From assembly GCA_021166835.1 (NCBI GenBank), contig JAJPEN010000024.1, positions 1 to 64,000 of the forward strand: a DNA stretch of 64,000 nucleotides, given 5' to 3'. The position numbers and the translations under genes were made by a program. Positions 56,952 to 62,727 of the stretch are shown here, in pieces; position 1 is the first letter of the stretch, and each line of letters opens with the position of its first letter. Source of the DNA: Burkholderiaceae bacterium (GTDB lineage: Bacteria > Pseudomonadota > Gammaproteobacteria > Burkholderiales > Burkholderiaceae). The notes below the pieces were generated by a model. That model ran no database searches and had not been told where the DNA came from. It saw nothing but the letters and a program-made list of their open reading frames with translations.

Positions 56952-57033
56952 TTCTGCACCGGTTGCCGATGCGCTGACCGCTGCTGCCTGCGCTGCCTGC
57001 TCGCACGGCAGCGCTTCGCTGATCCGTGTCCCA

Positions 57034-57114
57034 ACGCCCGCTCTTGCGGGCGTTCGTATGGAAAGCCCGCTCTGCGGGTACTCGTATGGAAACGCCCCGC
57101 TCCGCGGGCGTTTT
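57034..57114 (+). terminator. Triple tandem hairpin with final T-run
   Basis: Three related units: ACGCCCGC/GCGGGCGT (57034-57053, perfect 8-bp stem, TCTT loop), CCCGC/GCGGG (57066-57078), and AACGCCC/GGGCGTT (57091-57112) followed by TT. The spacers share TCGTATGGAAA. The last is the best intrinsic-terminator candidate downstream of the DUF3567 gene; the repetition suggests duplication of one hairpin. Confidence 0.6.
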
Positions 57115-57157
57115 AGTCTGTCCCGCCTTCCGCAGGCTCTTCCTGCCCCCGCGCGCG

Positions 57158-57177
57158 GCAAGCGGCACCCCGCTTGC
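57158..57177 (+). promoter_or_regulatory. Perfect inverted repeat upstream of the carbamoyltransferase
   Basis: GCAAGCGG (57158-57165) and CCGCTTGC (57170-57177) are perfect complements with a CACC spacer, 40 bp before the start codon of the carbamoyltransferase. It could be an operator or a leader hairpin controlling the three-gene cassette. Confidence 0.35.
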
Positions 57178-57217
57178 TCGGATCCCCGGCATCGGATGCA
57201 ACGGAAAGGGGATCCTC

Positions 57218-58906
57218 ATGCCTGCAGGCGACACCGGGCCGCGCGTCGTCGGCGTCAATCGAACGCAGGACGGCAGCATCTGCGTGATGGACGGCTCGCG
57301 CGTCGTCTGCTGCATCCAGAAGGAGCGGCTCAGCCGCCGGAAGCATCATTGGGGCAGGCTCGGTGACCTGCGCGATTTCTATCGGAACGCCATTGCCGAT
57401 CTTGCGACGCGTCCGATCGACGCGCTCGTCGAATGTTTCTCCTCCGACCGCGAGATCGAGCGCCTCGACCAGTACGACGACGAGCTGCGCGCGACGCTGA
57501 CGCTCGCGCCGAACGCCAGGCGCGCCCGCATCTCGCATCATCTCTCGCATCTGTACAGCGTGTTCCCGCCGTCGCCCTTCGACGAGGCGGCGGTGATGAT
57601 CGTCGACGGACAGGGCAGTCCCGCGTCGCAGTTCGACGAGAGCTGGCCGGGTCGCGAACGCACGCCCGGCCACTGGCGCGAGGTGTCGTCGTTCTACCGC
57701 GCCGATCGCAGCGGACGCCTCGAATGCCTCGACAAGCAGCTGTGGAGCGGCGACGAGGGCGAGCCGGTCGGCCTCGGCATGTTCTATTTCCTGCTCACGC
57801 AGGCGATGTTTCCGGGCGAAGGCAACGAGGGCAAGGTGATGGGGCTCGCTCCGCACGGCGACCCGGAGGCCTTCGGCCTGCCGCCGCTCGAGGTGAACGG
57901 CTTCGACGTGACGATTCCGGCCGCGTGGCGCGAGATCGTCGCGGTGCGTCCGCGCTTTCGCTACGACCCGAACGATCGCTCGCGCTTCGACGACGTTGCC
58001 AATCTCGCTGCCGCCGGCCAGCGCGCGTTCGAGGATGCGTTGCTGAAGCTCGCGACGACGCTGCACGAGCGCACCGGCCTGGACGCCCTGTGCTTCGCCG
58101 GCGGCACCGGTCTGAACTGCTCGGCGAACGACCGGCTGCTGCGCGAGTCGCCCTTCACGCAGCTGTTCATCCCGCCGGCGCCGAGCGACGCCGGCACTTC
58201 CCTGGGCTGCGCAGTCTACGGCCTCAACGCGCTGCTCGGCGAGCGCTGCGACTGGCGCTGGCGCGACGACTTCCTCGGCCCCGAACTGCGCGAGGGCGCG
58301 ATCGAGCGCGCGCTGGCAGGCGCACACGACCTCGTCGTCGAGAAGCCCGACGACCTGCCGAAGCGCTTGGTCGACGAGCTGCTCGCCACGCGCGTGGTCG
58401 CGCTCTACCAGGGCCGCAGCGAGTTCGGTCCGCGCGCGCTCGGACATCGCAGCATCGTCGGCGACCCTCGCGAAGGCATCGTGCGCGACTGGATCAACGC
58501 GCAGGTGAAGGAGCGCGAGTGGTTCCGCCCGCTCGCGCCGATCGTGCTGCTCGAGGAGGCCGATCGCTGGTTCGACATCCGCCGTCCGTCGCCGTTCATG
58601 CAGTTCGCCGCGCCGGTGCATGCGGAAGCGGCTGCGCGCATTCCGGCGGTCACGCACGTCGACGGCACCGCGCGGCTGCAGACGGTGGCCCGCGACGACG
58701 ATCCGCTGCTGCGCGCGCTGCTCGAAGGCTTCGCCGCGCGAACCGGCGTTCCCGTGCTGCTGAACACGTCGTTCAATCGCAGGGAGGAGCCGATCGTCGA
58801 GACGCCGCAGCAGGCGCTCGACTCGTTCCGCCGCATGCCGCTGCATTCGATCGCGATGCCGCCGTATTTCGTGCGCAAGCGCTCGGCGCCGGCGTCGCTC
58901 GCCTGA
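57218..58906 (+). CDS. NodU/CmcH-type carbamoyltransferase
   Basis: 562 residues. The N-terminal ASKHA-like domain (about 1-360) has HHLSHLYSVFPPSPFDEAAV, MIVDGQGSPAS, EGNEGKVMGLAPHGDP and CFAGGTGLNCSANDRLL. The C-terminal carbamoyltransferase domain has ALYQGRSEFGPRALGHRSIV, REWFRPLAPIVL and LNTSFNRREEPIVETPQQAL. Such enzymes move a carbamoyl group from carbamoyl phosphate via carbamoyl-adenylate to a hydroxyl of a sugar or natural product. The ATG at 57218 (MPAGDTGPRVVGVNRTQDGS) is preceded by AAAGGGG; the frame upstream crosses the hairpins and is not protein-like. It leads the cassette with the two downstream genes. Confidence 0.9.
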   Translation: MPAGDTGPRVVGVNRTQDGSICVMDGSRVVCCIQKERLSRRKHHWGRLGDLRDFYRNAIADLATRPIDALVECFSSDREIERLDQYDDELRATLTLAPNARRARISHHLSHLYSVFPPSPFDEAAVMIVDGQGSPASQFDESWPGRERTPGHWREVSSFYRADRSGRLECLDKQLWSGDEGEPVGLGMFYFLLTQAMFPGEGNEGKVMGLAPHGDPEAFGLPPLEVNGFDVTIPAAWREIVAVRPRFRYDPNDRSRFDDVANLAAAGQRAFEDALLKLATTLHERTGLDALCFAGGTGLNCSANDRLLRESPFTQLFIPPAPSDAGTSLGCAVYGLNALLGERCDWRWRDDFLGPELREGAIERALAGAHDLVVEKPDDLPKRLVDELLATRVVALYQGRSEFGPRALGHRSIVGDPREGIVRDWINAQVKEREWFRPLAPIVLLEEADRWFDIRRPSPFMQFAAPVHAEAAARIPAVTHVDGTARLQTVARDDDPLLRALLEGFAARTGVPVLLNTSFNRREEPIVETPQQALDSFRRMPLHSIAMPPYFVRKRSAPASLA

Positions 58907-58913
58907 AGAAGCT

Positions 58914-60374
58914 GTGAACGGATCGCGGCCCGTGATCCGCGGCTATCCGCACAGGCCGAGCGTGAAGCCCGGCCACACGCTCGTGCTGCACGTGTCCACC
59001 GGCGCGCCGGCATTTCGCGTCGCGTTCCACCGCTGGATCGGGCAATTCGTCGCGATGTACGTGTCGGGCTGGCTGCCGGGAACGGATGCGCCCGAGCGCG
59101 CGCCCGACGTCGACTGGCAATGGCCGGCGTTCGAGTTCCGCATTCCGTCTGACTGGCCATCGGGCGTCTACGTCGCGCACCTGCAGGAGCAGGGTCGCGA
59201 ACCCGGGAGGCTCGACGTGTCGATGGACCGCGCCGCCGCGCTCTTCGTCGTGCGCGGGCCCGGGCGCAGCCCGATCGTCTACAAGCTGCCGATCGCGACC
59301 TGGCACGCCTACAACTGCACCGGCGGCGCGTGCTTCTATCACGACCCGCCGCGCTCGATCGATCCGCCCGGCGCGCGCGTGAGCTGGCGCAGGCCGGGCG
59401 GCGGGATCGGCGGCATCACCTTCGGCGCGGTCGACCACTACGACGAGCGCTCGCCGCGGCAGACCTTCGCGCACTGGGACGCCGGCTTCATCGGGTGGCT
59501 GCGCGCCCGGGGACACGAGCCCGAATACTGCACCGACCTCGACCTGCACGAGGACGACGGCCTGCTCGCGCAGCATCGGCTGATGCTCAGCGTCGGCCAC
59601 GACGAGTACTGGAGCGAGACGATGCGTGCGCAGGTCGAGCGCTTCGTTGCCGGCGGCGGCAACGCGTGCTTCTTCGGCGCGAACGTGTGCTGGTGGCGCA
59701 TCCATCTCGTCGACGACTGCGGCGCGATGGTCTGCCACCAGGGCGGGCCGCGCGGCGCGCTCGATCACTGGTGGTCCCCGGTGGGCGCGGCGCGCCCCGA
59801 AGACTCGCTCACCGGCGTCAGCTACCGGCACGGCGGCGGCTGGTGGGACGGCCCGCGCGAAACGCGCGGCTTCATCGTGCAGGACGATGCGCACTGGGTC
59901 TTCGACGGCACCGGGCTGCGCACCGGCGACGCTTTCGGCGCGAACACGACGCCGCCGATCGTCGGCTACGAATGCGACGGCGCGCCGCTGCTGCCGGTCG
60001 ATGCGGCGCGCGGGCTGTACGCGCTGGCGCCCGACGCCGCCCGCTACGGCACGCCGCGCAGCTTCCGCGCGCTCGCCGTCGGTCCGCTCGACGAACGCTG
60101 GCAGGAGCTGCCGCACCGCGAGGGATACGACGCCAGGCAAGGCGTGCACTCGGCCACGCTCGGGCTGTACGAGCGCGACGGCACGGTCTTCACCGCGGGG
60201 TCGGTCGACTGGGCGCAGGCGCTCGCCCACGGCAGCGAGCCCGCCATCGAACGGATCACGCGCAACGTGATCGAGCGTCTGGCCGGCATCGGGCCCGACC
60301 GCGACTTGGGCGCCAATCCCGACCAGGGCTCGGGGCGCGGCGCGACCTCGTCCGCCTCGAGCCGGAACCGCTGA
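58914..60374 (+). CDS. N,N-dimethylformamidase large-subunit-like protein
   Basis: 486 residues. An N-terminal beta-rich domain (VKPGHTLVLHVSTGAP, WPSGVYVAHLQ) precedes the domain seen at the C-terminus of dimethylformamidase large subunits: YKLPIATWHAYNCTGGACFY, HRLMLSVGHDEYWSETMRAQ, VERFVAGGGNACFFGANVCW and GALDHWWSP. In dimethylformamidase this fold holds a mononuclear iron that hydrolyses a small amide; no small subunit is present here. The start is GTG 58914, 8 bp after the carbamoyltransferase stop; the next gene starts 4 bp after its own stop. Probably an amide- or carbamate-acting or glycan-modifying enzyme; function inferred only. Confidence 0.8.
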   Translation: MNGSRPVIRGYPHRPSVKPGHTLVLHVSTGAPAFRVAFHRWIGQFVAMYVSGWLPGTDAPERAPDVDWQWPAFEFRIPSDWPSGVYVAHLQEQGREPGRLDVSMDRAAALFVVRGPGRSPIVYKLPIATWHAYNCTGGACFYHDPPRSIDPPGARVSWRRPGGGIGGITFGAVDHYDERSPRQTFAHWDAGFIGWLRARGHEPEYCTDLDLHEDDGLLAQHRLMLSVGHDEYWSETMRAQVERFVAGGGNACFFGANVCWWRIHLVDDCGAMVCHQGGPRGALDHWWSPVGAARPEDSLTGVSYRHGGGWWDGPRETRGFIVQDDAHWVFDGTGLRTGDAFGANTTPPIVGYECDGAPLLPVDAARGLYALAPDAARYGTPRSFRALAVGPLDERWQELPHREGYDARQGVHSATLGLYERDGTVFTAGSVDWAQALAHGSEPAIERITRNVIERLAGIGPDRDLGANPDQGSGRGATSSASSRNR

Positions 60375-60378
60375 TCCC

Positions 60379-62214
60379 ATGGCTCGACTCCCGTCGCCCC
60401 GCATCAGCGTGCTGATGCCGACCTACGAGCAGCCGGCCTTCCTCGCGCGCGCGCTCGACTCGCTGTACCGGCAACGCATCGACGACTGGGAGCTGGTGCT
60501 GGTCGACGCGAGCTTCTCCGACGACACCGCGCGCGTCGTCGATCGCTGGCTCTCCGACTCGCGCATCCGCTACCTGCGCATCCACGAGGGCGGCCTGGGC
60601 TTCGCGCTGAACGTCGCACTCGATCACGCGCGCGCCGGACGCATCGCCTATCTGCCTAGCGACGACCTCTGGTACGAGGAGCACCTCGACCGCCTCGATG
60701 CGCTGCTCGAAGCGCATCCTCGGGCGGTGCTCGCCCATTCGGGCGTGCGCTACCGCTACAACCGCGAGGCGCCCGGCGCCGTTCCCGGCTTCGCCCTGCA
60801 GCTCGTGCAGTGCATGCACCGGCGCGTATCCGAGCGCTGGACCGAGCGCGACGAGATCGAGTCCGACGACCTCGACCGTCTCTACTGGAACCGGCTGCGC
60901 GCACATGGCGCCTTCGTCGGCGGCGAGCGCGTCAGCTGCGAATGGGTCGATCATCCGGCGCAGCGGCACAAGCGCATGCGGGAGCCGGTGGGCGGCATCA
61001 ATCCGTTCCGGCAGCACTATCGGGTAAGCACGCCGTTGCGCTTCCAAACGACGACGGGCAACTTCATCGACGAGGAAACGCAGTACCGCGCGCAGCGCGC
61101 CCGCGCCGGCACGCCGCGCGCGCGCGACGGCCTGAAGATCCTGCTGGTCGGCGAGCTGGCCTACAACGCCGATCGCGTGCTCGCGCTCGAGGAGCGCGGC
61201 CACGAGCTGCACGGCCTGTGGATGCCGGACCCCTACTGGTACAACACGGTAGGCCCGCTGCCCTTCGGCCACGTGCGCGATCTGCCGCGCGACGACTGGC
61301 GACGCGCGTTGGGTGAACTGCAACCCGACCTCGTCTATGCGCTGCTGAACTGGCAGGCGGTGCCCTTCGCACACGAGGTGATGCGCGAGGCGCGCGGCAT
61401 TCCCTTCGTCTGGCATTTCAAGGAAGGTCCGTTCATCTGCCTCGAGAAGGGCACCTGGCCGCAGCTCGTCGAGCTGCATCGCGACGCCGACGGACAGATC
61501 TTCAGCAGCCCCGAAATGCGCGACTGGTTCGACACCGTGGTGCCGGGCCTTTCACGGCGCACGCCGACGCACGTGCTCGACGGCGACCTGCCGCGTGCCG
61601 GATGGTTCCGCGGCGAGCCCTCGCCGAAACTGTCGGCGAGCGACGGCGAGATCCACACCGTCGTTCCCGGCAGGCCGATCGGCCTGCACCCGCCCGACGT
61701 CGCGACGCTCGCGCGACAGCGCATTCATCTGCATTTCTACGGCGACTTCACGCACGGCCAGTGGCTCGAGTGGATCGCGAAGGCGCGCGCGCTCGCGCCG
61801 CATCACCTGCATCTGCATCCGCACGTCGACGCGTCCGGCTGGGTGCGCGAGTTCTCGCAGTACGACGCAGGCTGGCTGCACGCGTTTCGCAGCGTCAACG
61901 AAGGCGAGCTGCGCCGCGCGAACTGGGACGACCTCAACTACCCGGCACGGATGACGACGCTGGCCGCGGCCGGCCTGCCGATGATCCAGCAGGCGAATCG
62001 GGGATCGATCGTCGCGACCGAGGCGCTCACGCGTCGGCTCGGCACCGGCGTCTTCTTCGACGGGTTCGACGAACTGGGGGAGATCCTGCGCGACGAGGAC
62101 GCGATGCGGACCTGCGGCGAGGCGGTGCGCACGCATCGGGAGGCGTTCACCTTCGATGCGCACGCGGACGAGCTGGTGGCGTTCTTCCGGCGCGTGATGC
62201 GCCGGGGCCTGTGA
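60379..62214 (+). CDS. Two-domain glycosyltransferase (GT2 plus GT-B/GT4-like)
   Basis: 611 residues. The N-terminal GT2 domain starts RISVLMPTYEQPAFLARALD and carries ELVLVDASFSDDT and a DxD-type motif in YLPSDDLWYEEH (Asp95-Asp96). From about residue 260 a second Rossmann-type domain begins (GLKILLVGELAYNADRVLAL) and runs through FVWHFKEGPFICLEKGTWPQ and FSSPEMRDWFD to a C-terminal ARMTTLAAAGLPMIQQANRG, resembling GT-B glycosyltransferases of the GT4/CgT type. Two transferases in one chain suggest consecutive sugar additions. It ends the cassette; no Wzx, Wzy or ABC exporter is adjacent. Confidence 0.82.
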   Translation: MARLPSPRISVLMPTYEQPAFLARALDSLYRQRIDDWELVLVDASFSDDTARVVDRWLSDSRIRYLRIHEGGLGFALNVALDHARAGRIAYLPSDDLWYEEHLDRLDALLEAHPRAVLAHSGVRYRYNREAPGAVPGFALQLVQCMHRRVSERWTERDEIESDDLDRLYWNRLRAHGAFVGGERVSCEWVDHPAQRHKRMREPVGGINPFRQHYRVSTPLRFQTTTGNFIDEETQYRAQRARAGTPRARDGLKILLVGELAYNADRVLALEERGHELHGLWMPDPYWYNTVGPLPFGHVRDLPRDDWRRALGELQPDLVYALLNWQAVPFAHEVMREARGIPFVWHFKEGPFICLEKGTWPQLVELHRDADGQIFSSPEMRDWFDTVVPGLSRRTPTHVLDGDLPRAGWFRGEPSPKLSASDGEIHTVVPGRPIGLHPPDVATLARQRIHLHFYGDFTHGQWLEWIAKARALAPHHLHLHPHVDASGWVREFSQYDAGWLHAFRSVNEGELRRANWDDLNYPARMTTLAAAGLPMIQQANRGSIVATEALTRRLGTGVFFDGFDELGEILRDEDAMRTCGEAVRTHREAFTFDAHADELVAFFRRVMRRGL

Positions 62215-62229: not shown

Positions 62230-62622
62230 CTAGAACTGCTCCCACGGCAGTCCGTCGAAACGCCATCCGTTGCTCTTGCCGCGTTGGCGATCGGCGTTCA
62301 TGTCGCCCTCGAAGCCGTGCAGCACGTTGTAGACGGCGCTGAAGCCGGCCGCCTCGAGCGCCGCGGCCGCTTCCACCGAGCGCTTGCCGCTGCGGCAGAT
62401 CAGCACCACCGGCCGGTCGAGCGAGTTGCCGGCGAGCTTCTTCACGTCCGCGACGAAGTGCGGGTTGAATTCCCAGTCGGGCGCGTCGTACCAGGGGACG
62501 TGCATCGAGCCGACGGCGTGACCGACGAAGAAATACTCGGGATCGCTGCGGCAGTCGACGAACAGGACCTCGGGATTGCTGAGGATGAAGTCGTGCGCCT
62601 GGCGGGGGAGGAGGTCTTTCAT
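62230..62622 (-). CDS. Rhodanese-like sulfurtransferase
   Basis: 130 residues, one rhodanese domain with active-site loop ICRSGKRSVEAA (catalytic Cys followed by the six-residue loop RSGKRS) and the upstream FVDCRSDPEYFFVGHAVGSM. It transfers sulfane sulfur in the cytoplasm. The ATG at 62622 begins MKDLLPRQAHDFILSNPEV, and an ATG 14 codons upstream is less likely. It is convergent with the glycosyltransferase and lies about 105 bp after the rhomboid gene on the same strand. The acceptor is unknown. Confidence 0.9.
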   Translation of the reverse strand: MKDLLPRQAHDFILSNPEVLFVDCRSDPEYFFVGHAVGSMHVPWYDAPDWEFNPHFVADVKKLAGNSLDRPVVLICRSGKRSVEAAAALEAAGFSAVYNVLHGFEGDMNADRQRGKSNGWRFDGLPWEQF

Positions 62623-62727
62623 CGCGCGGATGGTAACCGGGCCCCATATCGCCGCGCCGCTCATGCGAAATGCTTCGATCGAAATGCCGAAGCGTGAAAA
62701 GCCGCCTGCGTTCCTGCGTCCAGGCCG

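Follow-up and report, generated by a model that had tools for sequence, protein, structure and literature searches.

In the synthesis of Nod factors, a glycosyltransferase, an amide-cleaving step and a carbamoyltransferase follow a logic analogous to the one considered here, and proteins of the PF20254 family are routinely named after a solvent-degrading enzyme. In Pseudomonas, the consulted text of PMC8005017 presents WapO (PA5005) as a putative core-heptose carbamoyltransferase of the lipopolysaccharide (LPS) core cluster. The present work concerns three genes, called A, B and C, carried by a stretch of 64,000 nucleotides from a Burkholderiaceae bacterium (assembly GCA_021166835.1, contig JAJPEN010000024.1, positions 1 to 64,000), hereafter the window. 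On balance, the evidence leans toward the view that their products act in the assembly and tailoring steps of a single surface-glycan pathway, the genes of which are dispersed over several loci in the Burkholderiales. Each of the protein families was already known; their combination is apparently undescribed, no description of the set formed by A, B and C with the GT9, GT2x and DUF4254 genes presented below having been found in the open-access literature searched.

The three genes and their predicted active sites

The three genes lie head to tail on the forward strand in the order A-B-C. Gene A (57218-58906) starts with ATG and encodes 562 amino acids, in which an N-terminal Kae1-like domain (PF02543, 108.4 bits for a cut-off of 24) is followed by a C-terminal YrdC-like domain (PF16861, 213.1 bits for a cut-off of 27). 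Its closest relatives in the PDB are NovN, TobZ and GdmN (E 1e-57 to 5e-62). Alignment and spacing against these solved relatives designate H107, H111, D130 and D324 as the predicted metal ligands, and all four match the reference ligands of GdmN (H133, H137, D156 and D333). The first three are retained in 32 of the 34 A relatives scored and partly lost in two genomes, G459 and G426; D324 is invariant across 33 intact A proteins, namely 32 relatives and that of the window. With both domains and the four predicted ligands present, A is, judging from its sequence, a class III (NodU/TobZ-type) carbamoyltransferase.

Gene B (58914-60374, forward strand) encodes 486 amino acids from a GTG codon, or 480 from an alternative start at 58932. 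The protein scores 236.6 bits against PF20254 (cut-off 27) and has the fold of domains I and III of dimethylformamidase (DMFase). Its predicted iron ligands are Y133, Y142 and E231, and its predicted catalytic residues H229, N257 and E353; they are the counterparts of the DMFase ligands Y399, Y440 and E521 and of the DMFase catalytic residues H519, N547 and E657, and all six are invariant in a 14-sequence alignment. B is thus a predicted DMFA2_C (PF20254) iron amidohydrolase. This residue map rests on sequence alignment because the confidence score of the structure model (pLDDT) falls below 50 at residues 131-182 and 258-302, close to the active site. The pentraxin domain II of DMFase (residues 74-337) is missing from B in the alignment, the two proteins measuring 762 and 486 amino acids. 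The absence of the DMFase small subunit (about 132 amino acids), pointed out in a first-pass annotation of this DNA, was confirmed by tblastn, which at E 1 found nothing in the window or in the loci of ten relatives; as a control, the same query does find its own locus.

Gene C (60379-62214, forward strand) starts with ATG and encodes 611 amino acids, with an N-terminal GT2 domain (PF00535, 68.6 bits) and a C-terminal GT4-like GT-B domain. This two-domain architecture was recovered on testing. The PDB chains listed correspond to the C-terminal domain only, and the fold comparison barely covered the GT2 half.

The family assignments made in the first-pass annotation therefore stand for all three proteins, through Pfam matches (above cut-off for A and B), the PDB relatives of A and, for the GT2/GT-B fusion of C, the PF00535 match combined with C-terminal GT-B fold matches. 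The predicted catalytic residues of A and B, the loss of which had been named as a point that would count against the proposal, are kept in the window. The short gaps reported between the genes are upheld for B and C, which are 4 bp apart. The 7-bp gap between A and B hinges on the GTG at 58914, favoured by a Shine-Dalgarno-like AAGAAG; the rival GTG at 58932, which matches the family start M/V-I-R-G-Y-P, gives 25 bp.

Linkage and co-loss in related genomes

At E 1e-3, 1590 of the 8000 candidates scored are homologues of B and 2982 of 7996 homologues of C; in the 120 listed for each, those bearing a genus name are betaproteobacteria. A sample of 399 genomes of the order, counting its centre G002, has strong B matches in 2 genomes and B matches at E 1e-15 in 7, and C is present in 2 at E 1e-60, these absences being soft since at most three candidates were scored per genome. 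The genus of Massilia sp. IC2-477 (G003) is richer: among its 62 genomes, 25 carry C and 32 carry B, the latter including one relative of only 33% identity (G452) and two fragments (G422 and G427). The loci of relatives were partly called with a home-made gene caller based on the codon usage of the window genes; two of them (L123 and L124) are poorly called.

A and B are adjacent, on the same strand and with gaps of at most 53 bp, in all 31 examined loci that contain both, a count seeded from B matches in which A orthologues distant from B were not systematically included. Downstream on the same strand comes GT9a, encoding a heptosyltransferase-like protein, in 27 of 27 loci from the Massilia genus and G364 (within 300 bp in 24 of them, after about 1 kb in 3). 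A second gene of this type, GT9b, a GT2 gene (GT2x) and a DUF4254 gene usually lie beside A-B-GT9a. The association extends to the protein level, as the database protein P0109 is a natural B-GT9a fusion (60% and 64% identical). Another database protein, P0025, combines residues 1-289 of A with residues 150-460 of B at 94% identity to the window, by natural deletion or by assembly error.

The position of C is far more variable. A contiguous A-B-C arrangement was seen in the window and in its closest relative, the metagenome-assembled genome G001, only. In locus L007, C lies between GT2x and GT9b, on one strand and about 3 kb from A-B. In Massilia genomes it is found elsewhere; in G010, G423 and G431, where a single large contig carries both, the distance to A-B exceeds 1 Mb. 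Its neighbours in L056 encode a YdjM-type membrane protein, a chemotaxis receptor, a radical-SAM enzyme and a hybrid sensor kinase. The trio was initially presented as a self-contained unit. This description did not survive the comparison, C and A-B being separate in almost every relative and A-B being embedded in a larger GT9/GT2/DUF4254 locus; a self-contained operon was rejected on the basis of this linkage. Restriction to a single lineage, set down at the same time as a possible objection, holds for the contiguous trio and fails for the wider pathway.

This wider pathway would include a second cluster. Among eight relatives examined around their GT9 genes, a GT4-SDR-HAD-GT9w1 cluster, in which HAD is a HAD phosphatase, was found in six (G001, G002, G003, G007, G364 and G436), and parts of it only were seen in G005 and G394; some of these clusters also contain GT9w2, GT1w, GT2w or another carbamoyltransferase. 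An ABC exporter-type gene accompanies this cluster in G001, G364 and G436. Its domains in L132 are PF00664 and PF00005, the copies of L120 and L185 are 54-65% identical to that of L132, and the protein is presumably MsbA-like. In G436, the second cluster directly adjoins DUF4254-GT2x-GT9b-GT9a. The initial argument that no exporter is nearby, and that the acceptor must consequently be common to the cell, finds no support, given the exporter-type gene of these three relatives. G001 contains, together with A-B-C and the second cluster, a relative of GT9b (53%), a GT9w2-type gene (46-48%) and three carbamoyltransferases, one of which, located beside a GT2w relative, is 62% identical to that of the second cluster in G002. 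The second-cluster loci are L122, L127, L120, L132, L177 and L185, and no published description of a GT4-SDR-HAD-GT9 cluster was found.

The patterns of gene loss connect C to this set independently of its position. The locus was tabulated in the 45 of the 62 genus genomes with B or DUF4254, plus G364. GT9a is present at every locus of these 45 genomes that has a full-length A or B. Full-length copies of both A and B are found in 26 genomes; only A is full-length in G433, G444 and G447, only B in G435, G443 and G456, and neither is in 13. Of the 45 genomes with the locus, 25 carry C; the 17 genomes without the locus all lack it. The strongest association is with GT9b: C is found in 24 of 29 genomes with this gene and in 0 of 14 without (Fisher p 1.5e-7), G419 and G413 being excluded because their contigs end at the locus, and G066, in which A and GT9b are partial, being scored as absent at a coverage threshold of 80%. 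The association of C is weaker with A (p 0.001), GT2x (0.002), B (0.009) and DUF4254 (0.012), and there is nothing to test with GT9a (p 0.44).

In tree-independent pairs of genomes, C and GT9b change in the same direction in 6-8 pairs and in opposite directions in none (median p 0.016), and so do A and B (6-8 against 0, median p 0.016). For C with A the figures are 5-7 same and 2 opposite (p 0.29), for C with B 4-6 same and 1-2 opposite (p 0.38), and for C with DUF4254 2-3 same and 0 opposite; C with GT2x gives 4-5 same and 0 opposite among those listed, too few to reach 0.05. The tree used was a quick build from flanking proteins and GT9a, in which G436, G448 and G364 sit on long branches. 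Such repeated loss and decay would fit a variable surface structure.

Several relatives on mobile elements or in distant lineages were also noted. No plasmid relative of C was found at E 1e-30. Plasmid relatives of B reach at most 46.6% identity in the best 20 of 165 records, and those examined sit in other glycosyltransferase or sugar contexts, L119 being nearly unannotated. On a Streptomyces microflavus plasmid (L116), a DMFA2_C gene lies between a GT4 gene and a nucleotide-sugar dehydrogenase gene, with YcaO, P450 and cyclodipeptide synthase genes near; on a Caballeronia plasmid (L117), the order GT2 - DMFA2_C - PAP2 phosphatase is another glycosyltransferase/DMFA2_C pairing. In an actinomycetotal metagenome-assembled genome (L009), a DMFA2_C gene is near a DegT/DnrJ sugar aminotransferase gene.

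Active-site loss, proposed pathway and rival explanations

The catalytic residues are kept in 25 of the 29 full-length B proteins of the genus and in 32 of 34 A proteins. Five of these 25 residue-intact B genes are frameshifted: three by a common 13-bp insertion (G008, G010 and G460; L008, L010 and L195) and two by separate, unrelated one-base shifts (G440 and G421; L192 and L187). With one insertion shared and the other shifts unrelated, these frameshifts look like decay, and programmed recoding of B in the first three genomes was rejected on the same grounds.

A different situation is observed in G443, G435, G459 and G426 (L206, L191, L089 and L189), where B is full-length and devoid of its predicted active site. 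These genomes form two separate clades on the tree, G443/G435 and G459/G426. N257 (DMFase N547) and E353 (DMFase E657) are gone in all four, along with Y142 and H229 in G443 and G435, E231 in G435, and Y133 and Y142 in G426. The A proteins of G459 and G426 are also without H107, D130 and D324. Of the 208 positions that do not vary across the 33 intact A proteins, 33-34 differ in these two, versus at most 8 in leave-one-out controls; in the active-site-less B proteins 10-15 of 146 differ, versus at most 7. In all four genomes GT9a is kept, GT9b, GT2x and DUF4254 are missing at the locus, and C is missing as well; GT2x and DUF4254 are present in 24 of 24 loci with a residue-intact B (G419, of truncated contig, left out).

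The ratio of nonsynonymous to synonymous substitution rates (dN/dS) is 0.25 for the active-site-less B of G443 versus G435 (dS 0.50), 0.18 for that of G459 versus G426, and 0.33 for the A of the latter pair; six intact control pairs give 0.12-0.23 for B and 0.04-0.28 for A. Since two of the three values (0.25 and 0.33) exceed the intact range, constraint is somewhat relaxed and not gone. Either these proteins still serve beside GT9a in a way that needs no catalysis, or the loss happened so recently on part of the branch that the average masks the relaxation. The retention of the active-site-less forms beside GT9a suggests that this enzyme may also have A and B as partners in a non-catalytic capacity. 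It is suggested tentatively that this would be a second job, and that once the arm formed by GT9b, GT2x, DUF4254 and C is lost the chemistry of A and B no longer has a use and the active sites decay, a carbamoyltransferase and an iron amidohydrolase being thereby turned repeatedly into retained pseudoenzymes.

In the proposed pathway, the glycan is read as a surface glycan of heptose type, with putative substrates and a putative acceptor. C, GT2x, GT9b and GT9a would extend it on a carrier, C adding one or two sugars next to GT9b and GT2x. A would carbamoylate a hydroxyl group, as WapO putatively does on core heptose according to the consulted text of PMC8005017. B would release an acyl group from an amide in this glycan and so uncover an amine or an acid, and the residue on which it acts would depend on the GT2x/GT9b/C arm. 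Completion of the glycan would probably take place on a lipid-linked carrier, and the linked ABC exporter would flip the product. Computation establishes the family memberships, the conserved active-site residues, the A-B-GT9a linkage, the co-loss of C with GT9b and the exporter-type gene in a linked cluster; the reactions and their order, the identity of the sugar as heptose and the lipid-linked location at the surface are deduced from these. Glycan carbamoylation, already present in the first-pass annotation, persists as a general theme.

A number of observations weigh against this dispersed pathway. The membership of the window itself is deduced from G001, because no relative of GT9a, GT9b, GT2x or DUF4254 was found in the window; in G001, a metagenome-assembled genome, GT2x and DUF4254 gave no match either. 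GT9b occurs without C in five genomes of the genus (G421, G427, G433, G448 and G455) and in G364. The sugar may be other than heptose, because the GT9a and GT9b representatives, those of L003 and L007, fall under every NCBIfam heptosyltransferase cut-off. The exporter is a domain match whose role in glycan export is putative. The N-acyl substrate of B is a guess based on two characterised relatives, and one of these requires the small subunit absent here. Finally, the retention of A or B without catalytic residues in two clades is not accounted for by an enzyme-only role.

The same data can be set against three other explanations. Tailoring of the LPS core proper, in which the inner-core heptose would be the acceptor, A would act like WapO, and the GT9, GT2 and C enzymes would build an outer-core branch, is possible but rather unlikely. 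The combination of GT9 genes with a NodU-type carbamoyltransferase is indeed the Pseudomonas core arrangement in the consulted text of PMC8005017, in L122 GT9w1 scores above the heptosyltransferase II cut-off (141.0 versus 134.6), and the linked cluster includes HAD and ABC exporter-type genes. However, canonical WaaF and WaaC are encoded separately, at other places, in G003 (415.9 and 309.9 bits) and G436 (426.1 and 304.9 bits), all above cut-off, so that the GT9 enzymes are additional to those of the core; in G001, the best WaaC-type score is 159.8 for a cut-off of 185.3. No core kinase is found among the annotated neighbours in L003 and L007. With their representatives below all core cut-offs and WaaC/WaaF separate, an identity of GT9a and GT9b as canonical LPS core enzymes is unsupported.

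It is improbable that A and B are chiefly scaffold or chaperone partners of GT9a, with catalysis dispensable or secondary, even if a full-length B in two clades and a full-length A in one persist without catalytic residues at dN/dS 0.18-0.33, GT9a stands beside every full-length A or B tabulated, and P0109 fuses B to GT9a. Most homologues, that of the window included, keep their catalytic residues, and catalysis is therefore under selection in most lineages; moreover, two of the three dN/dS values of the dead forms lie above the intact range. The original picture of a self-contained trio making and then trimming a carbamoylated metabolite or glycan, with B acting on the product of A, retains very little probability. 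It can draw on the operon-like spacing in the window and in L001 and on the tendency of A and B toward joint loss in the tree-independent pairs, but in almost every relative C is separated from A-B, no full-length A or B in the 45 genus genomes occurs without GT9a, and either of A and B can be lost without the other: A persists without B in three genomes and a residue-intact B without A in G456, while the B kept without A in G435 and G443 has lost its active site. Trimming by B of the carbamoyl group added by A is accordingly unsupported.

Flanking sequence and comparison with known systems

The perfect inverted repeat announced upstream of the trio (57158-57177) is real, with an 8-bp stem and a 4-nt loop, about 40 bp 5' of A, and is largely kept 5' of A in the closest relative. 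A second perfect 8-bp repeat (57180-57187 / 57208-57215, loop of 20) lies just 5' of the A start codon and brackets its ribosome-binding region. Terminator-like stems with a T run occur on the forward strand at 57096-57110, and GC-rich hairpin units resembling terminators recur at 57030-57120 with a GTATGGAAA spacer. When perfect 8-bp stems with a loop of 3-8 were counted, each overlapping window separately, the 266-bp intergenic stretch gave 4, an excess over mononucleotide shuffles, of which 6 in 200 had at least one; hairpins as such are nevertheless common here, since the whole window gives 50 of these stems. Terminator-like stems in the region number 5, versus a shuffle mean of 2.1 (standard deviation 1.8). 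No sigma-70-like promoter was found, and an Rfam search gave no match. A DUF3567 gene is located upstream of the trio, and a convergent rhodanese gene (62230-62664) 15 bp 3' of C.

With A, B, C, GT9a, GT9b, GT2x and DUF4254 as a defined gene set, a carbamoylated glycan that is apparently undescribed can be looked for. The multi-locus pathway also places DUF4254 in a functional context; in the open-access literature searched, this family is mentioned once, in a single paper. Linkage, fusion and co-loss associate this PF20254 subfamily with a carbamoyltransferase and with heptosyltransferase-like enzymes, so that many proteins annotated as "dimethylformamidase" probably serve in glycan tailoring. 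The retained active-site-less forms constitute a natural test of whether tailoring enzymes double as glycosyltransferase scaffolds.

Among known systems, TobZ, GdmN and NovN have the same two domains and four metal ligands as A; they sit in antibiotic clusters, whereas A belongs to a glycan gene neighbourhood. B differs by its glycan gene context from both the Paracoccus dimethylformamidase (PDB 6LVB) and N-acetyl-(R)-beta-phenylalanine acylase (8HUY). It is also without the pentraxin domain of about 260 residues found in the former and without a gene for the small subunit, in the absence of which the DMFase large subunit is inactive. Compared with Nod-factor tailoring by NodU, NodB and NodC, A scores 157 bits against the NodU equivalog NF041651, far under its cut-off of 1000, and B is unrelated to NodB. 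With regard to WapO, the consulted text of PMC8005017 mentions no DMFase-family protein, and the partners here are B, GT9a and GT9b, GT2x, DUF4254 and C in place of core kinases and canonical WaaC/F. Within that same text (PMC8005017), WapO is nonetheless, like A, a NodU-type carbamoyltransferase encoded with GT9 heptosyltransferases and other glycosyltransferases.

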